24,528 nt of DNA from a virus: positions 1 through 24,528 of the IMG/VR virus record IMGVR_UViG_3300047319_000775; one strand, 5' to 3'. Positions 2,947 to 24,528 of this stretch are shown here, one piece after another. How positions within the stretch are numbered: the first letter of the stretch is position 1; each line of letters opens with the position of its first letter. The notes below the pieces were generated by a model. That model was not told the origin of the DNA, did not search any database, and saw nothing but the letters and a program-made list of their open reading frames with translations. Position numbers and translations under genes: made by a program.

Positions 2947-4682
2947 AGCGCATCACGGCGGCACGCAAGCGCACGAAGACGGTGAAGCTTCGCAAGAATG
3001 GGAAGCACGCGATCGATGCGGCTTCTACGTTGCGCGTGCCGCTGAGCACTATGCGCTCGATTCTGCGGCCGCAGGTGAACCGCTCATGGATGATGCCTTA
3101 CGTGGCGTCTTATACGCCGGTAATGGTGGAGTCGATTCTGCGCGGGGCGCTATCGGGCGTGATGGTGCAGCAGTGGGAATTGTTTCGGCTGATGCTGGAT
3201 ACCTGGCCGGCGCTGGCGGCTTGCAAGGAGGAATTGCTTTACGGAATCAGCCGGCGCGAATTGCAGTTTGATCCTTACGCGGAGGAAGATGAGAAGCCGA
3301 CGCCGAACGCGATCGATCGCGAAAAGCTGGTCACGGAAGCGTTGCGCAATATGCAGCCGCGCGCGGAAGCGGATGAGAACGGGCTGGATGGCACGATCGA
3401 GGACCTCATGGATGCGTGGTTTCGCGGGATCAGCGTGTGCGAGGTGCTTTGGTTTACCACCGACACGGTTAACCAGGGGCTGATCACGGCGCCGCGGGCG
3501 ACGAAGTTTGCGCATCCGTGCAATTACGCATTCGGCGATGACGGCGTTTTAGGGCTTACTGATGACGCCAGTTATGCGGATACCACGGCTGGCTTTCGCA
3601 GGAACGAGGTGCGGCCGTTTCCGCCTTACAAGTTTCTTACCGCGATTCACAAGGCACAATCCGGGAGTCCAATTGGCGGTGCATTGCTTCGACCTTTAGC
3701 GTGGTGGTGGTGCGCCGCCAATTTTTCAAGCGATTGGTTGCTAAACCTCGCGCAAATTTTTGGCCTTCCATTCCGGTGGGCAAACTATGCTGCTTCTGCG
3801 CCAGACGAAACGGTTTCGGCCGTTTGCAATATGTTGCAGAACATGGGTAGCGCCGGATGGGCGGCGTTCCCTGAAGGCACTTCGCTGGAATTGAAGGAAG
3901 CGGCGCACGGCAGCGACCGGACGCCGCAAGGAGATTTGCTCGACCGCGCCGACGCATACGTGCGTTTGCTTATTCTCGGTCAGACCATGACCGGCAACAC
4001 CCTCGCAAGTGGGCGCGGCGGGCAAAGCTTTGGGACTGTGGAAGCGCAGTTAAAGCAGGACCGGCTCGATGCGGCTTCGTTTTTCATTTCCAACATTTTC
4101 AACCGGCAACTCATTCCTTACATCCTTCAGCTCAATTACGGCGATACGATGGAAGCGCCGAAGTGCCGGTTCCTAAAGGAAACGGAAGGGAACTATCAGG
4201 ACGCGCAGCGGGACCAGATTCTTACCACGATGGGGCTGGACATTCCGCTAAGCTATTTGCGTCACAAGTATTCCGTCCCATCAGCTACCAACGATGAGCC
4301 GGTAACAACGCCGCCGCCGAAACCGATCGCGCCTTCGAGCGTGAGCGCCGGGCCGAAGGGAACGCGGCCGCTGGGTGAACCTTCGCGCAATGGGACGCCG
4401 AACCCGAAGGAAATGGCTGCGAAGCTTGAAAAAATTTCAGCGATTGAAGACGAAGAGATTTTCGCAATCGAGTTGAACCGATTGGCCGATGACGTTGAAG
4501 CGGCAGCTGCACCGGCGCCGGCAGCACCGACGCCGAGGCGAGCGGGCAAAAGCTGGCACGCGCGGCCGTTCATCACGAAAAACGCGGCGGACGATTTCGC
4601 ATCGAAACACCCTGGGACTTGGGTCGAAGAAGCAATGACCGGCGGCAAGCCGAACGGCTGGGCCGTTAAGTTTGATGCATGA
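2943..4682 (+). CDS. Phage portal protein (DUF935, Mu gp29-like)
   Basis: The dodecameric portal forms the DNA channel at one head vertex. This 579-aa protein has DUF935 features: an N-terminal helical stretch with LALxSG-like spacing (ILRGALSGV, about 65-73), a WPALAACKEELLYGIS segment, the GISVCEVLWF segment, the FAHPCNYAFGDDG turn, and the WWWCAANFSSDWL block followed by IFGLPFRW. The last 110 residues are an Ala/Pro-rich linker and a short basic domain, longer than in Mu. The TTG start is supported by a strong AGGAGG at 2932-2937, five bases upstream, and by the TTGA overlap with the previous stop. It sits between terminase and capsid genes, as expected. Confidence 0.88.
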   Translation: MKRITAARKRTKTVKLRKNGKHAIDAASTLRVPLSTMRSILRPQVNRSWMMPYVASYTPVMVESILRGALSGVMVQQWELFRLMLDTWPALAACKEELLYGISRRELQFDPYAEEDEKPTPNAIDREKLVTEALRNMQPRAEADENGLDGTIEDLMDAWFRGISVCEVLWFTTDTVNQGLITAPRATKFAHPCNYAFGDDGVLGLTDDASYADTTAGFRRNEVRPFPPYKFLTAIHKAQSGSPIGGALLRPLAWWWCAANFSSDWLLNLAQIFGLPFRWANYAASAPDETVSAVCNMLQNMGSAGWAAFPEGTSLELKEAAHGSDRTPQGDLLDRADAYVRLLILGQTMTGNTLASGRGGQSFGTVEAQLKQDRLDAASFFISNIFNRQLIPYILQLNYGDTMEAPKCRFLKETEGNYQDAQRDQILTTMGLDIPLSYLRHKYSVPSATNDEPVTTPPPKPIAPSSVSAGPKGTRPLGEPSRNGTPNPKEMAAKLEKISAIEDEEIFAIELNRLADDVEAAAAPAPAAPTPRRAGKSWHARPFITKNAADDFASKHPGTWVEEAMTGGKPNGWAVKFDA

Positions 4683-4885
4683 CTATGAAAAAGAAAATCG
4701 CAGTCAAAAAGCAGAAAGCAGTGAAACGCAAGCCGGTCAAAGCGAAATCGAAAAATGGAAAGGAACCTGAATTTATCTCGAAAGCGAAGGAACCGGAATT
4801 TGTCGGCAAGGCCAGTAGCGGGAAACCGTTAACCAGGACTCAGGACAAAGAATACCGCAGGCAAATGGGGTGGCCCGCAAGATGA
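4679..4885 (+). CDS. Small Lys-rich protein between portal and capsid genes
   Basis: This 68-aa protein is extremely basic: the first 30 residues are largely Lys with Val, Ala and Arg. A repeated element follows (KEPEFISKA then KEPEFVGKA, about 29-45). Its ATG overlaps the portal stop (ATGA), and its TGA at 4883-4885 overlaps an ATG of the capsid gene (ATGA). The composition suggests a nucleic-acid-binding or scaffold-interacting head protein, but no family is recognised. Confidence 0.65.
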   Translation: MTMKKKIAVKKQKAVKRKPVKAKSKNGKEPEFISKAKEPEFVGKASSGKPLTRTQDKEYRRQMGWPAR

Positions 4886-6975
4886 ACGAAGAACTAGAAC
4901 CCATTGAATGCCGCGCGGCGGTGGAGATTTCAGCTACGTCGCGGAATGAAGTTTTGTTTTTGCCGATCGGGCTTCACTCGATCACGCCTGTCGCCGGTGG
5001 CATCGGGCGGCCCATCAAAGTTAAGGTTGATGCGAGCACCGCCGATGCCATCGAGCAGCAACGCAAAATCATGGCCGGCAAAGGGAAACGGCCGTATTTC
5101 GATTTCGATCACGAAGATGGCGCGGCGAGTTTTTGGCCGGAAGGTTTCGCCTGGCGCAGTGGTGAGGGCGTAATTGCGAAAGGCGAATGGACCGCGCGCG
5201 GGCGCAAAGCGGTGGAAGGCAAAGACTATCGGGCCTTCTCGCCAGTGTTCCACGTGGATAACAAACGCAGCGATCCGGCCAAGGTGATTTGCATGGAACA
5301 CGCTGCACCGAACATGGGCGGGCTGGTTAACAATCCCGCATTCAATTTGCCCTTGTGGGCAAAAAACGCCGGAGATTCGGCGACATCAACAAACAACCCT
5401 GTGGCGGCGAGGCTAGAGGGAACCAACAAAGAGGAAAACAAAATGACGACAGAAGACCTCGCCGCGCTCCGGGCGAAAGATCAGGAGCTTGAAAGAGATG
5501 AGCAGGATGAATCCACCGCAACCAAACGTGCGGCGTTGCATTCCGAAATCAGGGCCGGCGAACTGGAAATCGAGATGAGCGAGATCAAAGCCCGCAACGA
5601 GGAGTTGCAGGGCAAGGTTCGCAAACGCCAGCTCGATGACGCGCGCCTGGCGGTGCGTGAAGCGGTAAAGCGCGGGGCGATCGCAGCGCGTGATTTGCCG
5701 AAACAAAAGATGTGGGAAACCCGCATCGCGGCGGATCCGAGGGACAAGGAAATTTTGGATTCGATTCCCGGCAACATGCCGCAACTCAGCGGCGCAATCA
5801 TCAGCAGCGGCCGTGTGACGATTAGCGATGACGATCCTTCGCGGATCTTCGGCGAACTGGCGCGGGTTAGTTCGCTTTCAACCCACGCTTCGCAACCGGA
5901 GCAGCGCAGGATGTTGAGCCGGGAGTTTGCGGCGATCTACGCTCGCGAATTCAAAGGATCGAACAAGGAACGGATGCTGTCATTTCCGGTTTCGGAATTT
6001 GAAACGGCGATCATGGGCGCGGATGTCACCGACACGAATCTGAAAACGCTTTCCGGTTCACTGGTGACTCAGCGCACGCTGGAGCTTCTCAGATTCACGT
6101 TTCCATCCCTCACGATGTTCACCACGGATTTCAGCGATCAGGCTGCGCAATTCAATCAGACGGTGATCACGCGCACGGTGACGATTCCAAACGTAACGTC
6201 CTACAACACTACAACGGGATGGGCCGATTCAACGGCAGCCACCGCGGATGTGCCGGTTACGATCAACCAGCACCGGGGCGTTAATATCACGTTCAACGAG
6301 CAGATTCTGGCCTCAACAGTGCGGCGGTTGTTCGATGAATTCGCGCCGGCGGCGGCTTACGCCTTGTCCAAGGACATGGTGGATAATCTTTATGCCAACA
6401 TCACGGATGCCAACTTCACGAATAACACCGTGCAGGCCACTTCGGGCTTCGTGCGAACAAGTGTGATAGCCATCGGCACGCAGCTTACAATCCGCGGCGT
6501 TCCGCTGGCGCTGGGGCAGCGCACGTTGTTGCTTTATCCAACCGTGTTTTCGGCCCTTGTCGGTGACACGGCGTTGATCACGTTCGCGGCATATCAGAAG
6601 CCGGAATTGATCACAGCGCCGCAGAGTGGCGCCGGGCTGGTGATCCCGGTTGATACGTTCCAGGTAGTCAACGCGCCGAACCTGCCGACGAACAACGGAA
6701 ATGTCACAGGATTCGGTTGCAGCAAATCCGCGCTGGTGATTGCCACGCGCCTGCCGAATGATTACACCAGCGCCAATCCTGGCGCGAATTACGGCAGTGT
6801 GCAGGTGATGACCGAACCGGATATAGGGATTTCGGTGATGCTCACGCAATACGTCAATCATCAGCTCGCGGCCGCAACGTCGCGGATTTCGCTGATGTAT
6901 GGCACGGCCGCGGGTCAAACCAACGCCGGGCAATTGCTGAAAGCTGCCGCCGGATCGGGTTCCAGCAGAACATAA
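4882..6975 (+). CDS. Fused prohead protease, scaffold and major capsid protein
   Basis: This single 697-aa frame joins three head functions. Residues 1-170 match Mu gpI-type proteases: a PYFDFDHED segment with a candidate catalytic His, then GEWTARGRKAV, YRAFSPVF with a candidate catalytic Ser, and the VNNPAF end signature. Residues about 188-300 are a charged coiled coil followed by ARLAVREAVKRGAI, typical of gpI scaffold tails and delta domains. Residues about 325-697 form an HK97-like capsid protein (VPVTINQHRGVNITFNEQ; the end is beta-rich with repeated 'DIGISVMLTQYVNHQ'-like strands). ATG 4882 is preferred over GTG 4870 because it makes an ATGA overlap with the previous gene. A strong internal start at 5443 would give a separate 510-aa scaffold-capsid product. 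Confidence 0.85.
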   Translation: MNEELEPIECRAAVEISATSRNEVLFLPIGLHSITPVAGGIGRPIKVKVDASTADAIEQQRKIMAGKGKRPYFDFDHEDGAASFWPEGFAWRSGEGVIAKGEWTARGRKAVEGKDYRAFSPVFHVDNKRSDPAKVICMEHAAPNMGGLVNNPAFNLPLWAKNAGDSATSTNNPVAARLEGTNKEENKMTTEDLAALRAKDQELERDEQDESTATKRAALHSEIRAGELEIEMSEIKARNEELQGKVRKRQLDDARLAVREAVKRGAIAARDLPKQKMWETRIAADPRDKEILDSIPGNMPQLSGAIISSGRVTISDDDPSRIFGELARVSSLSTHASQPEQRRMLSREFAAIYAREFKGSNKERMLSFPVSEFETAIMGADVTDTNLKTLSGSLVTQRTLELLRFTFPSLTMFTTDFSDQAAQFNQTVITRTVTIPNVTSYNTTTGWADSTAATADVPVTINQHRGVNITFNEQILASTVRRLFDEFAPAAAYALSKDMVDNLYANITDANFTNNTVQATSGFVRTSVIAIGTQLTIRGVPLALGQRTLLLYPTVFSALVGDTALITFAAYQKPELITAPQSGAGLVIPVDTFQVVNAPNLPTNNGNVTGFGCSKSALVIATRLPNDYTSANPGANYGSVQVMTEPDIGISVMLTQYVNHQLAAATSRISLMYGTAAGQTNAGQLLKAAAGSGSSRT
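5431..5445 (+). promoter_or_regulatory. Internal ribosome binding site and start codon in the capsid fusion gene
   Basis: GAGGAAAACAAAATG places a GAGGA Shine-Dalgarno seven bases before an in-frame ATG at 5443. The start falls exactly at the junction between the protease part and the coiled-coil/capsid part, so it probably produces the capsid precursor in excess over the full fusion. This parallels the nested scaffold starts inside protease genes of lambda and Mu. Confidence 0.65.
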
Positions 6976-6989
6976 TTCATGTGGTCCAT

Positions 6990-7019
6990 CTGCCCTTCCG
7001 CCGGAAGGCGGGAGGGCAG
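6990..7019 (+). other. Stable GNRA-tetraloop hairpin after the capsid gene
   Basis: Bases 6990-7002 and 7007-7019 form a 13-bp stem (one G-T wobble) closed by a GGAA tetraloop. A further 5-bp pairing (TGGTC/GACCA) may extend it past a small internal loop. No T-run follows, so it is not a classic intrinsic terminator. Its 3' arm contains GGGAGGG, the only Shine-Dalgarno-like sequence for the glycosyltransferase start, so folding could hide that site and lower expression after the highly expressed capsid gene. Confidence 0.7.
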
Positions 7020-7029
7020 TCATGACCAA

Positions 7030-7851
7030 ATGAAAATCGACGCTGAAACCGGCTGGTTTAAAGGTGTGGGTGACATTGTTTGCTATGCCTGGATCGGGCA
7101 AGGCATACGTGCGCAAGGCGGCGATGTCACCTTTTACTGTAACGGCTGGCGCCGTGAGCTTTTCGAGGTGCTTAATATGACGAGCACCGACGATCCGACA
7201 GGCGCGGTTGTGACGCATGAAGGTCACGAGCAGGCTGTGGGCGAAGGTTCGCCGCTGAATTATCTGGAATGGATTGCCGCCAAGCTGGGCGTCAAAGAAA
7301 AGCCGCAGCGGCCGCTGCTTAATATGGTCCCGATGGATCGCGAGATGGGGCGCCGGGCATCGGCTAACGTGCTGATCTTCCCTCACTGCGTATGGCCGAC
7401 GCGGACCTGGCCGAAGACGTATTTCATCGAACTGGCGCTGTTACTGCAGAAAGCGGGGCTGACTGTAAAGATGGTTACTGAAGAGCGCGATTACCAGCTT
7501 CTATCCTTCCACGGCATTTACAAAAAGAGCTGGTCATATATCGCCGGGGCCATTCAGTGGGCGGATTTAGTTATCGGGAACGATAGCGGCCCGGCGCACC
7601 TTGCCGGCACGATCGGCACGCGCGCCCTTGCGATCCACGGGCCGACGCAGGAACGGATTTACGGTTACTTGCCGGAAGTAACATCGTTCCGCAAAAAGGT
7701 GCTTCCATGCGCGGGTTGCCATTGCCTCGGGGATTTCCCACGCGGCGGCGCTTGCGAACTGGGATGCTCAGAGCTTTATCGCACGTTTCCCGAAGACGTT
7801 TACGCGACGGCCGCGCAAATCCTTCACCTGGAGGATCGCAAAGCCGCATGA
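7030..7851 (+). CDS. Glycosyltransferase family 9 (heptosyltransferase-like)
   Basis: GT9 enzymes transfer heptose or related sugars from nucleotide donors to lipid A or other acceptors. This 273-aa protein has a shortened N-terminal Rossmann half beginning FKGVGDIVCYAW (GxGD motif) and a C-terminal half with VLIFPHCVWPTRTWP and the family signature VIGNDSGPAHLAG (NDSGPAH about 184-190) followed by ALAIHGPTQ. A CAGCHC...C...C cluster near the end is also usual in the family. ATG 7030 is chosen over ATG 6979, which would place the start upstream of the hairpin. A three-codon ORF (ATG at 7022, stop at 7031-7033) overlaps the start. It may alter host surface glycans or decorate virions. Confidence 0.85.
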   Translation: MKIDAETGWFKGVGDIVCYAWIGQGIRAQGGDVTFYCNGWRRELFEVLNMTSTDDPTGAVVTHEGHEQAVGEGSPLNYLEWIAAKLGVKEKPQRPLLNMVPMDREMGRRASANVLIFPHCVWPTRTWPKTYFIELALLLQKAGLTVKMVTEERDYQLLSFHGIYKKSWSYIAGAIQWADLVIGNDSGPAHLAGTIGTRALAIHGPTQERIYGYLPEVTSFRKKVLPCAGCHCLGDFPRGGACELGCSELYRTFPEDVYATAAQILHLEDRKAA

Positions 7852-18586: not shown

Positions 18587-18889
18587 CTAACAAGTCGTCC
18601 GGAATCTGAAAATTGATTTGTGGTACCAAGGGTGAATAAATCGGCCAGGTCGACCCTCCTCATACGCCGGCGGGATTGCTTGCGTAAGAAGTCCCTCGAA
18701 CATATGTTCAATCCGACCATCCGTTGTAAGTCGTTCAGCCTCAACACAAATGGATTTTATACTAGCTTTGTTGTCTGATGTTCTGGGGTACAAGTGGGTT
18801 GCTCTATTATACCAGTCCACTTTGATGGAATTTAATGCTTGCACACTAACGAGAAGCTTAATTAAGATTGGCACAGAAAGCGTGTTCAT
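18587..18889 (-). CDS. Unknown 100-aa protein next to the homing endonuclease
   Basis: This protein has a hydrophobic N-terminus (VPILIKLLVSVQAL, about 6-19), then polar alpha/beta sequence, with no recognised motif. Its ATG overlaps the stop of the HNH gene (ATGA). Base composition here is clearly richer in A+T than in most of the window, like the HNH gene itself, so the two were probably acquired together. Coding status rests on the coupled start and on codon layout. Confidence 0.5.
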   Translation of the reverse strand: MNTLSVPILIKLLVSVQALNSIKVDWYNRATHLYPRTSDNKASIKSICVEAERLTTDGRIEHMFEGLLTQAIPPAYEEGRPGRFIHPWYHKSIFRFRTTC

Positions 18890-19275
18890 CGTCTCGCCCT
18901 ACCCCACTTGCGCCATCTATGAAGCTGATTACTTCGTGGAGTAGCCCACTCTAGATTGCACAGTCTGTTATCGTCTCTGATAGAATTGATGTGATTCACA
19001 ATGGTATGTTTTGGAGACGGTTTGTCGAGAAATGTGGAGGCTATTAATCTGTGAACCGAACAGCACTTTACTTTACCGAAGCGAGATAGGTTGATGTAAA
19101 GATAGCCCACCCCTGGATGCTTATTGAGTCTGAGAATCTTACCTACGACACGGCGCTGCGTGCTGGTACGACGTCGCACTCGACCGCGTGAAGAACATTC
19201 ATGTTCTGGAAAATCGGGAATGATCCGCCAAATCTCATCAGAATCAGCAATAGCCCGAAGCAACAGTTTCCTCAA
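18886..19275 (-). CDS. NUMOD4-HNH homing endonuclease
   Basis: This 129-aa protein starts with a NUMOD4-type motif, EIWRIIPDFPEHECSSRGRVRR (about 14-35), then a beta region ILRLNKHPGVGYLYINLSR, and the HNH core: VHRLIASTF (His75), IVNHINSIRDDNR (His95) and NLEWATPRSNQ (Asn107). Such enzymes nick or cut DNA and spread their own genes between phages. The TTG at 19275 is a tentative start: the frame stays open upstream, with no ATG and no strong ribosome binding site. The region is A+T-richer than its surroundings and interrupts an otherwise gapless operon. Confidence 0.85.
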   Translation of the reverse strand: MRKLLLRAIADSDEIWRIIPDFPEHECSSRGRVRRRTSTQRRVVGKILRLNKHPGVGYLYINLSRFGKVKCCSVHRLIASTFLDKPSPKHTIVNHINSIRDDNRLCNLEWATPRSNQLHRWRKWGRARR

Positions 19276-21056: not shown

Positions 21057-21285
21057 GGTCCTGTAAATGTTTGAGCATCCGTTTCATGTGTTCGTGCTGG
21101 TCATCCACAATCGAAAGCGTGGTTAAATCGTGCCATAACCCGTCGTAGAACTCGGCGTCGGGATGGATTTCCAGTTGCGTTTTGCAGTGCTGGCAGACGA
21201 CATACGCTGAAGGCGGGATCGGCACGCGAACGTCCTCTTCGCAAGATGGACATGGATACTCGTTGTAATCAGAAAGGTATGGCAT
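21040..21285 (-). CDS. Small zinc-ribbon protein
   Basis: This 81-aa protein has two CxxC knuckles (C12/C15 and C31/C34) around a short beta turn, a classic zinc ribbon, then an acidic-to-basic helical tail (VDDQHEHMKRMLKHLQDHE). The start at 21285 is preferred over the ATG at 21291, because the AGGAGG at 21292-21297 lies six bases from 21285 but directly against 21291. That AGGAGG is part of the codons for the acidic tip of the preceding gene. A role in replication or transcription is possible. Confidence 0.7.
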   Translation of the reverse strand: MPYLSDYNEYPCPSCEEDVRVPIPPSAYVVCQHCKTQLEIHPDAEFYDGLWHDLTTLSIVDDQHEHMKRMLKHLQDHESAA

Positions 21286-21964
21286 CTTCATCCTCCTCTG
21301 GTGGTCCCGCGGCTTGTACCGCTTCTTTCATCGCTTGAAATTTGGACGGCTCTTTGAGCGTGTATTCGCGGGCTTGTTTCTGTGCCGGCTGCGCGCCTTT
21401 GCGCGACCATTTGCCCTGAAATTGCACCGCGTTTTTCTCGAGCCAGTCACGCACGTATTGCGGCCGCCACACCTGCGTCCCTACCCCGAACTTCTTACAG
21501 CACCGGCGCAATGCTTCGCTCCACGCACTTTCCACGACATCGCCAAACGTCATTTTCGGATTGTTGGGAAAATACTTCGCCGTGCCAACGGCTTCGGCCA
21601 CGAAGTTGCCGCGGATCATCAGCACCAGGTCCACCGCGATCTCGTTGGCGTCATTTCGCATGAAACGTTCCCGGCATATCTCAGCCACAGCACCTGGCCC
21701 GAACACTGCCCACAACCGTTCACGCAACGCCATGTGCCCGATGTAGATGATGCCGTCATGGCCGCGGATCTCGACTTCGTTATCCGGGAAATCTTCGCGC
21801 AGCTTCTTTTGCTCGTCCTTGTTGAGCTTGAGCTGGCTCGCGCCTTTGTAGGCTTCGCCCAGGAGGGCGCCGATGTGCTCGGTGCGCAGTTGCTTGGCAT
21901 CGGCCGGCGCGTGTTCCGGCGTAACTGCCGGCGGACTTTCGGTTAAAGCTAGTTCGTCGGTCAT
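21269..21964 (-). CDS. Rad52/Mgm101-like single-strand annealing protein with SSB-type tip
   Basis: Phage annealing proteins bind ssDNA and promote strand annealing in recombination and replication. This 231-aa protein has the Rad52-type core: EVEIRGHDGIIYIGHMALRERLWAVFGPGAV (64-93), NEIAVDLVLMIRGNFVAEAVGTA (107-129) and VVESAWSEALRRCCKKFGVG (143-162). The C-terminus is a disordered linker ending in PPEEDEDAIPF, closely like the DDDIPF tip by which bacterial SSB recruits partner proteins. ATG 21964 overlaps the previous stop (ATGA) and has GGAGGG upstream; a further upstream GTG/TTG-type start is not needed. No exonuclease partner is seen. Confidence 0.75.
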   Translation of the reverse strand: MTDELALTESPPAVTPEHAPADAKQLRTEHIGALLGEAYKGASQLKLNKDEQKKLREDFPDNEVEIRGHDGIIYIGHMALRERLWAVFGPGAVAEICRERFMRNDANEIAVDLVLMIRGNFVAEAVGTAKYFPNNPKMTFGDVVESAWSEALRRCCKKFGVGTQVWRPQYVRDWLEKNAVQFQGKWSRKGAQPAQKQAREYTLKEPSKFQAMKEAVQAAGPPEEDEDAIPF

Positions 21965-22203
21965 GCCACCCTCCTGTTGAACTTGGGCCACACGGTGCGC
22001 CGTTCCTGGTAGGCTTCGACGTCAACCAGGCGAACGCTGTGGCTTTTTTTGGTGTGAATGATGACCGGGAGATTCGTCCGCACCCATTGCGGGGTTTTTT
22101 TGAGCATCTTGGCCGCATCAGGGACCGGGATCTCTTCAAGGCGCCGGATGCGTTTCACCATGTCGGTGAATTCGCGTTCGAGGTGGGTGAGAGCGGCGCT
22201 CAT
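21961..22203 (-). CDS. HTH protein, excisionase- or regulator-like
   Basis: This 80-aa protein has an N-terminal helix (1-24) and then a helix-turn-helix of the MerR/excisionase kind: IPVPDAAKMLKKTPQWVRTNL (25-45), a wing with basic residues (IIHTKKSHSVRLVDVEAYQERR). Such small proteins bend DNA at att sites or regulate early promoters. It is the second gene of the early operon, coupled to the RHH gene (ATGA) and to the annealing gene (ATGA). An excisionase would fit the integrase, but regulator is equally possible. Confidence 0.65.
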   Translation of the reverse strand: MSAALTHLEREFTDMVKRIRRLEEIPVPDAAKMLKKTPQWVRTNLPVIIHTKKSHSVRLVDVEAYQERRTVWPKFNRRVA

Positions 22204-22373
22204 TCTTTAGGCTCCTCGCCATCGCGTTGCTTCTCCTCCGCCGCGAGCCGCTCAATAAGGCGCCCAACGCTAAGGTCGCGTTTCACGGCAAGCGCAAAGA
22301 GAGTACGCTTGCTTTTCCTTTCCATGACTACGTCCAGACGCGCAGGTGATTTGAAGCGCTTTGGACGTGACAT
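22200..22373 (-). CDS. Ribbon-helix-helix regulator, first gene of the early operon
   Basis: This 57-aa basic protein fits the RHH fold of Arc/CopG/MetJ repressors: a basic arm, strand ARLDVVM (11-17), helix 1 KSKRTLFALAVKR (20-32), turn DLSVGRL (33-39) and helix 2 IERLAAEEKQ (40-49). RHH dimers insert their beta strands into the major groove of short palindromes. It is transcribed away from the operator region at 22394-22479, opposite a second RHH gene, so it likely acts there. AGAGGAA upstream supports the ATG. Its stop overlaps the next gene (ATGA). Confidence 0.65.
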   Translation of the reverse strand: MSRPKRFKSPARLDVVMERKSKRTLFALAVKRDLSVGRLIERLAAEEKQRDGEEPKE

Positions 22374-22393
22374 ATCTAAGGATTCCTCTGGCA

Positions 22394-22479
22394 GTTACAT
22401 ACGTGTTGTAACTACGCATAAAACCCGTGGGCAACGTGTGCAATTAAATTCTTGATTTTTAGAGTAACGTGTGTATAAA
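22394..22479. promoter_or_regulatory. Divergent control region with three 33-bp-phased operator-like sites
   Basis: ACGTGT occurs at 22401, 22434 and 22467, exactly 33 bp apart. Each is the centre of an imperfect palindrome: GTTACA-tacgtgt-TGTAAC (22394-22412, perfect arms), GCA-acgtg-TGC (22431-22441), and a weaker third around 22461-22475. The third sits in the spacer of the plus-strand promoter, and the second overlaps a weak minus-strand promoter (TTGCAC at 22443-22438, TATGCG at 22420-22415). This is the layout of a repressor-controlled switch. Another ACGTGT lies at 22666. Confidence 0.6.
22452..22479 (+). promoter_or_regulatory. Sigma70-like promoter for the repressor-integrase operon
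   Basis: TTGATT (22452-22457) and TATAAA (22474-22479), spacer 16 bp, lie about 20 bases before the ATG at 22500. The -10 has five of six consensus bases. The third operator-like site lies between the two boxes, so the product of this operon or its opponent could block it. Confidence 0.6.
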
Positions 22480-22499
22480 ACCCTCGAAATTGTCTCTTT

Positions 22500-22712
22500 A
22501 TGCCCTCCACCAAAGTAAGACTGGATCTGACTGTTCAGCACAGATTCAAGGAAGATGCCCGGAAGCTCGCCAGAGAACGGCGACGCTCGATTTCCGGCCT
22601 CTTCGAGGACTTAATCGAAGAGGAAAAGGTTCGCCAAAAAAAAATCTGGCAGACACACATAAAACACGTGTCCGGCGCGTTGCTTCCAGCGCTCGCTAAT
22701 TCACTCCTATGA
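22500..22712 (+). CDS. Ribbon-helix-helix regulator, first gene of the integrase operon
   Basis: This 70-aa protein also fits RHH: strand KVRLDLTV (5-12), helix 1 HRFKEDARKLARERR (14-28), turn RSISG (29-33) and helix 2 LFEDLIEEEKVRQKK (34-48), then a short C-terminal extension. It faces the other RHH gene across the operator array and heads the operon with integrase, the place of a lysogeny repressor. It has a good promoter. Its stop overlaps the next ATG (ATGA). Confidence 0.7.
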   Translation: MPSTKVRLDLTVQHRFKEDARKLARERRRSISGLFEDLIEEEKVRQKKIWQTHIKHVSGALLPALANSLL

Positions 22713-22918: not shown

Positions 22919-23127
22919 AAACCAAAAAATTTAAGCCTCTCAGCAAAGGCGAGGGCGATCCAATCGAAAATTGGCTGGAACTGAATGAAGCAATCGCTGA
23001 TGCGGTTTCATTGGTGCGCTTTATCGCAGACCGGCGCACCATTGATGGTAAAACCATGACGCTTTCGCAGATTCAGGAAGAGGCGAAATCGTGTATCGCC
23101 GCGATTGATAAAATCCTGAGACCGTGA
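22915..23127 (+). CDS. Small helical protein upstream of integrase, unknown
   Basis: This 70-aa protein is helical, with a basic N-terminus (MKTKKFKPLSKGE) and two amphipathic helices (ENWLELNEAIADAVSLVRFI and LSQIQEEAKSCIAAIDKIL). Both ends overlap neighbours by GTGA. It may assist integrase or be a small regulator; nothing in the sequence shows which. Confidence 0.6.
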   Translation: MKTKKFKPLSKGEGDPIENWLELNEAIADAVSLVRFIADRRTIDGKTMTLSQIQEEAKSCIAAIDKILRP

Positions 23128-24254
23128 AGATCGGCCACGTAGAAATCCAGGTCCAGCAGTACGGGGACGGGCGCTGGGGCTTTGACGATTACTCCAAAGG
23201 CCCGCGCAAAATGGTGCGGCTTCTCACCAAGCAAAAAGCCTTGTCCCGCGCCACCGATGTCGCCGTTCTCATGGCCAACGGCCGCGGCGATCTGTTGCAG
23301 GTCGATGCCGGCGAGCTGGCTGAATTCCGGCAGTGGAAAAATGCGTGCACTTCCAGTCCATCATTCGCCGACGCGCGCACGGAATTTATTGCACTCAAAA
23401 GTCGCCGGAGCAGCCGGCACGTTATATCGCTCGAACGCGACCTCAAACTGTTGGAGAATTTCATCGGGCCGAGCGTAGCCATCGGCACTGTGACAGCGTT
23501 GGACATTCAGCGTTTTCTTTCTTCACGAAACGTGAGCGAGCGCCGCAAATTCAATCTGCGCGCCGAAACGATTGCCCTGTTTCGCTGGGCACGTCGGATG
23601 TCCTACCTGCCGGACCGCACCACCGAAGCGGAGAAAGTTGAACCAATCGAAAAACTGCCGGGCAAACCAAACGTTCTTACGGCCGCTCAATTACAGATCA
23701 TGCTCGATAACGTGCTCGAGGCATATCTGCCGTGGCTGGTGATCGGAGCATTCGCCGGCATTCGCACCGAAGAAATTGCGCCGGATCGCAAAAGCAAAAA
23801 GTCCCCGCTCATGTGGGAGGATTTCGACTGGCGCCACAAGGTGATCATCATTCGGGAAGAAACCAGTAAGACCAAGCACGAACGCGAAGTGCCGATCCTG
23901 CCCAATTTGGCACAATGGCTTGTGCCATATCGGAACTCAAAGGGACCGGTGATGGGTGATTGCCCGCGGCAACCAAACGACCGCGAGACCGCGCGCCTGG
24001 GCAAACTGATCGGCGGCTGGAAACACAATTGCCTCAGAGATTCCTATTGCAGCTACAGAACGCGCATCCTGCAAGACGTTCCGAGGACCAGCTACGAAAT
24101 GGGCAACAGTATCCAGATGGTCAAACGTTCCTACCACCGGCGGCAACCGATCCGCGCCGCGCGCGAGTGGTTCAATATCAAGCCGGCCAAAGATCCAAAG
24201 GTGATCGCGTTTAAGCGAGCGATAGCAAAAAAAGTATCAGAAAGTATCAAATAG
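23124..24254 (+). CDS. int: Tyrosine recombinase (phage integrase)
   Basis: This enzyme recombines attP with the host attB. At 376 aa it has a full domain set: an N-terminal arm-binding part (1-75), a SAM-like core-binding domain (80-165) and a catalytic domain (185-345). Visible residues: Arg214 (GAFAGIRTEE), Lys249 or Lys251 (TSKTK), the box II segment HNCLRDSYCSY with Arg305, and Tyr337 (KRSYHRR). The usual HxLRH is HNxLRD, and the usual LGH is MGN (Asn328), as in integrases I associate with Verrucomicrobiota and Planctomycetota. GTG 23124 overlaps the previous stop. Its last codons form two arm-type repeats of attP. Confidence 0.92.
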   Translation: MKIGHVEIQVQQYGDGRWGFDDYSKGPRKMVRLLTKQKALSRATDVAVLMANGRGDLLQVDAGELAEFRQWKNACTSSPSFADARTEFIALKSRRSSRHVISLERDLKLLENFIGPSVAIGTVTALDIQRFLSSRNVSERRKFNLRAETIALFRWARRMSYLPDRTTEAEKVEPIEKLPGKPNVLTAAQLQIMLDNVLEAYLPWLVIGAFAGIRTEEIAPDRKSKKSPLMWEDFDWRHKVIIIREETSKTKHEREVPILPNLAQWLVPYRNSKGPVMGDCPRQPNDRETARLGKLIGGWKHNCLRDSYCSYRTRILQDVPRTSYEMGNSIQMVKRSYHRRQPIRAAREWFNIKPAKDPKVIAFKRAIAKKVSESIK

Positions 24255-24415
24255 ACCCCCTCAATTCCGCATGATCGGCGCATCAATTGAACGGTTTTAC
24301 CTAGCAAACGCGATTTTAGCTACGTAGCGTTTTCGGGTTCGAATCCCGCCGGCCCGATGACGTTTTTCATAGGTAAAACAGAATCGGCGCAGAAAAAAGT
24401 ATCAAAAAAGTATCA
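24229..24415. other. Phage attachment site attP with nested symmetric repeats
   Basis: Reading outward to inward on both sides: paired AAAGTATCA repeats (left 24231-24239 and 24241-24249; right 24393-24404 and 24404-24415, about one helical turn apart), ATCGGCGCA direct repeats (24274-24282 and 24383-24391), and the perfect inverted repeat GTTTTACCTA/TAGGTAAAAC (24294-24303 and 24370-24379). They enclose a core with a tRNA-like 3' end. This is the expected layout of arm-type and core sites next to an integrase gene. No gene is seen in 24255-24463. Confidence 0.75.
24334..24357 (+). other. tRNA 3'-end-like core of attP
   Basis: CGGG-TTCGAAT-CCCG is a T-arm with the invariant TTCRA loop, followed by CGGCCCG and a discriminator A, as in the 3' part of a bacterial tRNA gene. 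No matching acceptor 5' strand or D-arm is present, so this is not a complete tRNA. Integration would rebuild the host tRNA end. The implied acceptor 5' strand, CGGGCCG, starts with C, as proline tRNAs often do, but the identity is uncertain. Confidence 0.65.
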
Positions 24416-24528
24416 GATTTGCATTGCTAAGGGTTTCGCTTAGGCGTATTTCGGTTACCCGAAGTGGCATCATCTTCGGATCAAACGCTCGTTAGTCCCG
24501 CCGCCGGCCAGCGTTTGCCTGGCTTGAG
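24402..24528. repeat. Terminal direct repeat, right copy
   Basis: This is the identical copy of bases 1-127. It continues the attP right arm into the small terminase start, showing that the integrase and terminase ends are joined in the circle. Confidence 0.95.

Follow-up and report, generated by a model that had tools for sequence, protein, structure and literature searches.

Studied phage decision switches mostly pair HTH proteins. Here we ask what two small RHH-like regulators do that are transcribed away from each other over a short gap beside a viral integrase gene, and whether the evenly spaced repeats in this gap could serve as their operators. The window, by which we denote the whole stretch of DNA analysed (24,528 bp; IMG/VR record IMGVR_UViG_3300047319_000775), is a complete-looking virus. 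Its bases 1–127 recur as a direct terminal repeat of 127 bp at 24402–24528; the assembly is probably circular and covers a complete genome. Rightward genes encode terminase, portal, capsid and tail proteins, and the leftward set forms an early block. The closest cellular relatives of the integrase were found in Prosthecobacter and in Verrucomicrobiales MAGs, with matches at E ≤ 1e-40 in 12 of 388 Verrucomicrobiota genomes, and the only two phage records matching it both infect Akkermansia. Based on these relatives, the host of this temperate virus is likely a member of the phylum Verrucomicrobiota.

The divergent gene pair and its two proposed operons

The open reading frames bear out the divergent arrangement: a 57-aa and a 70-aa protein start on either side of a 126-bp gap and are encoded in opposite directions (Table 1). 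On the rightward side, the RHH-like gene, two small ORFs and the integrase form a chain with the junctions ATGA, GTGA and GTGA, and these 4-nt overlaps support the repressor–integrase operon proposed in the initial annotation. For the excisionase-like HTH protein on the leftward side, the window copy yielded no Pfam match, and members of its family match HTH_17 (1.7e-5) and PHROG 66 (excisionase/regulator). In IMG/VR, neither the two RHH proteins nor the 69-aa ORF had direct relatives, and the annealing protein as query retrieved none either.

Table 1 Features of the gene pair, the intervening gap and the adjoining genes (positions in the window).
Feature	Position	Strand	Remarks
Mgm101/RecT-type annealing protein	21269–21991	-	Next gene leftward; Pfam PF06420, 5.7e-25
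Excisionase-like HTH protein	21961–22203	-	4-nt overlap (ATGA) with leftward RHH gene
Leftward RHH-like regulator, 57 aa	22200–22373	-	ORF; proposed Cro-like early regulator
Operator-like site 1	22393–22413		AGTTACA-N7-TGTAACT; ACGTGT 22401–22406; sole extended palindrome in gap
Proposed weak leftward promoter	22415–22443	-	TTGCAC-N17-TATGCG; by eye; below scan threshold
Operator-like site 2, AACGTGTG	22433–22440	+	ACGTGT 22434–22439; overlaps proposed leftward -35
Proposed rightward promoter	22452–22479	+	TTGATT-N16-TATAAA; by eye; below scan threshold
Operator-like site 3, AACGTGTG	22466–22473	+	ACGTGT 22467–22472; in proposed rightward promoter spacer
Rightward RHH-like regulator, 70 aa	22500–22712	+	ORF; proposed lysogenic repressor
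Fourth site ACACGTGT	22664–22671		Perfect 8-bp palindrome in rightward RHH ORF; matches on both strands (22664/22666)
Small ORF, 69 aa	22709–22918	+	4-nt overlap with rightward RHH; homologue in L003
Small ORF, 70 aa	22915–23127	+	4-nt overlap at each end
Tyrosine integrase	23124–24254	+	End of rightward chain; PHROG integrase 1.7e-16; relatives L002–L012

The designation of both proteins as RHH-type is likely from family profiles, each protein alone remaining below the curated threshold. The leftward protein by itself had no Pfam or PHROG match, and the rightward one gave sub-threshold matches to DUF6364/RHH_1 (RHH_1 0.089) and to an Arc-like PHROG (0.07); within the family, the strongest match to an Arc-like PHROG reached 1.8e-4. 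A joint profile of the window proteins and their counterparts in the viral relatives L004 and L006 (A7) matched six PDB sequences with weak E-values of 0.047–2.6, which were RHH chains only (MazE7, CopG, HP0222 and MatP, each a known RHH protein). Searching the PDB sequences with single proteins or three-member profiles gave nothing useful. The cores of both proteins align gap-free with those of Arc and Mnt, and the leftward protein aligns also with the left RHH of L004 and L006. Compared with the Arc/Mnt set, the profile of the rightward protein reached a probability of 64, and the left-trio profile A3 alone matched weakly (probability 1). Single-sequence AlphaFold models were poor, with pLDDT values of 68 and 78, and contained helices only, without an RHH fold. 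An HTH match, sought in both regulators, was not found. The profile matches suggest that both proteins are probably of the RHH type. The two share 36% identity over 42 aa without gaps, and hhalign relates the left to the right family (probability 92), suggesting an old duplication; the regulators look like paralogues.

Repeats and proposed promoters in the 126-bp gap

The perfect 33-bp period noted initially was reproduced, as the three ACGTGT copies of the gap are spaced by exactly 33 and 33 bp. When the gap was shuffled 5000 times with dinucleotides preserved, a 6-mer triple at equal spacing never arose, and the entire 24.5 kb contain three such triples only (spacing 10–60). The hexamer itself is not enriched genome-wide (7 observed, 7.9 expected), with five of the seven copies located within 22401–22671. 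The description as three palindromes could not be maintained: long arms are present only at site 1, and sites 2 and 3 are direct repeats of AACGTGTG. Arms of at least 7, as at site 1, occurred in 198 of 3000 shuffles. The perfect ACACGTGT inside the rightward ORF had been overlooked. A minus-strand terminator-like hairpin (22650–22674), also within the rightward RHH gene, overlaps this fourth site. With 10.5 bp per turn, 33 bp correspond to 3.14 turns, placing the outer sites ~100 degrees apart, so that the proposed same-face arrangement holds approximately, as roughly one face.

A sigma-70 scan found no promoter reaching its threshold in the gap, and both promoters in Table 1 are by-eye proposals. 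Within these proposals, the reported placement of one operator inside the promoter of the repressor–integrase operon agrees with site 3, and that of another over the weak early promoter with site 2; site 1 lies just downstream of the leftward promoter.

We consider it quite probable that the gap and the gene pair constitute the immunity (lysis–lysogeny) switch of the phage, with a related RHH protein on each side. Of the two, the 70-aa rightward one would most likely be the lysogenic repressor and the 57-aa leftward one its Cro-like opponent. In favour of this reading are the overlapping gene junctions, the integrase with its attP-like tRNA T-arm, and the comparisons with relatives described below. 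The repressor and the integrase would share one transcript, and the Cro-like regulator would head an early lytic transcript with the excisionase-like HTH gene and the recombination/replication block, both promoters being placed within the gap. Binding at sites 1 and 2 would turn the leftward promoter off, and binding at site 3 would do so for its rightward counterpart, the state being set by which protein favours which site. We counted against the switch reading that the 70-aa protein has no S24 domain, that the RHH matches are sub-threshold or weak, that the structure models were poor, that the promoters fall short of the scan threshold and that the ACGTGT array is lost in relatives.

Is the 33-bp array part of this circuit? 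A pattern search across IMG/VR for three ACGTGT copies at 33 bp retrieved 13 stretches, none between RHH genes; mostly these were coding repeats or unrelated, and one (L040) was intergenic with repeats of its own. The same array was also sought in related phages, and no relative of the same integrase family keeps it. The initial annotation had named such a loss as a refuting outcome. In immunity regions, however, it is expected from the joint divergence of a repressor and its operator, so that the array is refuted as a shared element and the circuit is not: the array is private to the window phage, unlike the architecture. The loss, as well as the selection of the array after it had been seen, also fits a coincidental spacing, with regulation at different positions, for example the lone 21-bp palindrome, which would be compatible with a switch. 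We regard such a coincidence as rather unlikely in view of the shuffling result and of a similar switch in a bacterial genome (G320, below), where two palindromes are centred exactly 33 bp apart.

The same locus in viral and bacterial relatives

Relatives were defined by integrase matches in IMG/VR, giving a small, integrase-linked sample of ten distinct loci, with L012 left out as a duplicate of L011 in the switch region. A divergent RHH-like pair lies upstream of the integrase in nine of the ten (L002, L003, L004, L005, L006, L008, L009, L010 and L011), where RHH assignments come from ORFs read by eye and scattered Pfam matches, several of them sub-threshold; L002 has RHH_1 above the cutoff. 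The one exception, L007, carries a C1/Cro-type HTH protein on the integrase side (HTH_26 above cutoff). The excisionase-like HTH neighbour was found in all ten. Two further candidates, L054 and L070, were rejected, the layout being absent.

Sequence identities to L002, L004 and L006 were 83, 74 and 74% for TerL, 69, 64 and 64% for the integrase and 57, 64 and 62% for the HTH protein, and the corresponding values were 21, 43 and 40% for the rightward (right-slot) and 25, 33 and 27% for the leftward regulator. Among these close relatives the two regulators thus diverge faster than their neighbours (21–43% versus 57–83%), a pattern that would be expected of an immunity region. The palindrome centres of L005 and L010 are about 40 bp apart, showing that a spacing of 33 bp is not universal. 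Overall, the relatives appear to repeat the layout, each of them with proteins and operators of different sequence.

In L003, three successive RHH-like ORFs are found on the integrase side (3317–4052), the RHH of the third being C-terminal. L004 and L006 contain a third RHH-like ORF on the opposite strand, between the rightward RHH gene and the integrase (L004:4742–4963, L006:4736–4921).

Bacterial loci were assessed by reading ORFs together with domain and pairwise matches, our home-made RHH profile giving no significant match alone (best E 0.15). In G320, an RHH and an HTH gene face a CI-like HTH_3 protein (1.9e-9) and an integrase. In G191, an RHH and an HTH gene likewise face an RHH_3 plus S24-like protein, with both domains just below the cutoff, and an integrase. 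An active peptidase was rejected for this S24-like domain, which is degenerate and has lost the GxSM serine motif (GYRM). That C1-type HTH proteins, or RHH domains joined to S24-like ones, can fill the integrase-side slot indicates that it behaves as a repressor slot.

A second prophage-like locus of G320 (contig 3), with a different integrase, sets an RHH protein against an RHH-S24 (LexA/CI-like) protein. The former shares 38% identity with the left RHH of L005 (8e-13), and the amino terminus of the latter matches the right RHH of L005 (5e-7). Its Peptidase_S24 domain is above the cutoff, and GRSM and LKE motifs of catalytic type and an AG cleavage-like motif are kept by eye. The intervening 77-bp gap contains the two palindromes mentioned above, each of 19 bp; none of 5000 shuffles contained two palindromes of this kind, and the core GTAGC is common to these and the L005/L010 palindromes. 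A broader proposal, namely an RHH/RHH switch in a group of temperate Verrucomicrobiota phages that includes a damage-sensing RHH-S24 version (G320 contig 3) and keeps about three helical turns between operators, is one that we put forward tentatively, at slightly under an even chance.

Two Verrucomicrobiota proteins (L072:1243–2061, L076:1375–2754) carry S24 above the cutoff and a sub-threshold HTH, along with RHH-like stretches by eye or, in L072, a TacA1 match.

Known systems and alternative roles of the pair

The closest precedent for the layout is immI of P22 (X01916), where the RHH genes arc and mnt likewise diverge over a short gap (90 bp) with overlapping promoters, as proposed for the window. 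The suggestion of a little-described RHH-against-RHH decision circuit is tempered by this precedent, and it gains from the recurrence of the pair in the relatives and from the slot refilled by repressors. In P22, the pair belongs to an accessory late-operon element, the "ant moron" (PMC2629481), and controls the antirepressor ant. By analogy, the window pair might be an accessory module controlling a neighbour, for example an antirepressor, with the true immunity repressor encoded elsewhere. We judge this improbable. The window pair divides the integrase chain from the excisionase/recombination block, which is not a late-operon position. No ant antirepressor was found beside the RHH genes, whose scanned neighbours are the HTH and annealing proteins on one side and the small ORFs and integrase on the other. 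Likewise, no other repressor candidate emerged from the part of the window ORFs that was scanned, and the same slot is occupied by C1-type repressors in L007 and G320.

As an immunity switch, the locus resembles lambda-type CI/Cro in its anatomy, with a divergent repressor and early regulator, a multi-site region between them and the repressor side linked to lysogeny, and relatives place C1-type HTH or S24-domain repressors in the repressor slot. Both regulators may, as in lambda, use the same operators. In contrast to CI/Cro, the window proteins are RHH-like rather than HTH, comprise only 57 and 70 aa and lack an S24 domain. A small RHH lysogeny regulator acting on repeated operator copies is known from the archaeal virus SSV1, where F55 maintains the carrier state (PMC9608457); F55 differs in being single, without a described divergent RHH opponent, in its 11-nt site ATAGATAGAGT, and in belonging to an unrelated virus. 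With the layout known from immI and the role from F55, an Arc/Mnt-like pair would, in the window, take the part that CI and Cro play in lambda. Neither RHH/RHH lysogeny switches nor RHH-S24 repressors turned up in the open-access literature searched, and, as far as this literature shows, little has been published on immunity of Verrucomicrobiota phages. If true, the switch and its relatives would provide a natural series for studying how phage immunity and the specificity of repressors evolve, with RHH proteins as both opponents, a repressor slot open to RHH, C1-type HTH or RHH plus S24-like proteins, and operators that shift along with the proteins. It would also give a route to repressors overlooked by HTH-based annotation.

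The best family matches of several relatives are antitoxins, namely TacA1, RelB/DinJ, VapB and FitA-like RHH proteins, as would suit orphan antitoxins or toxin–antitoxin modules, that is, RHH autoregulators with no part in the phage decision. Such matches are common for short RHH proteins. This role is very unlikely, as neither gene adjoins a toxin family match or a conserved toxin-like partner, and the genes following the rightward RHH vary (the 69-aa ORF in the window and L003, a zinc-ribbon-like ORF in L002), with the HTH gene and the integrase constant. Instead of repressing transcription, one or both proteins might assist the integrase as DNA-architectural proteins or recombination directionality factors, which we consider highly improbable. 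For such a role speak the close linkage to the integrase and excisionase-like HTH genes and the example of Apl from phage 186, which combines the functions of excisionase and regulator and binds repeats one helix turn apart (PMC7498355). Against it, the window repeats lie between the divergent starts with no copy found near the attP-like site, and the exchange for C1-type HTH or RHH-S24 proteins agrees with repressors.

Elsewhere in the window, a single 701-aa ORF (4870–6975) has matches to head maturation protease as well as to major head protein, corresponding to a protease–capsid fusion, and is followed within the structural gene block by a glycosyltransferase family 9 (heptosyltransferase-like) gene (6979–7851). 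The leftward block includes a homing-type NUMOD4/HNH endonuclease (18886–19275). The attP-like segment, 3' of the integrase (24294–24379), features a tRNA T-arm-like TCGGGTTCGAATCCCGCCGGCCCGA at 24333–24357, which sits between the 10-bp inverted repeat arms GTTTTACCTA and TAGGTAAAAC.
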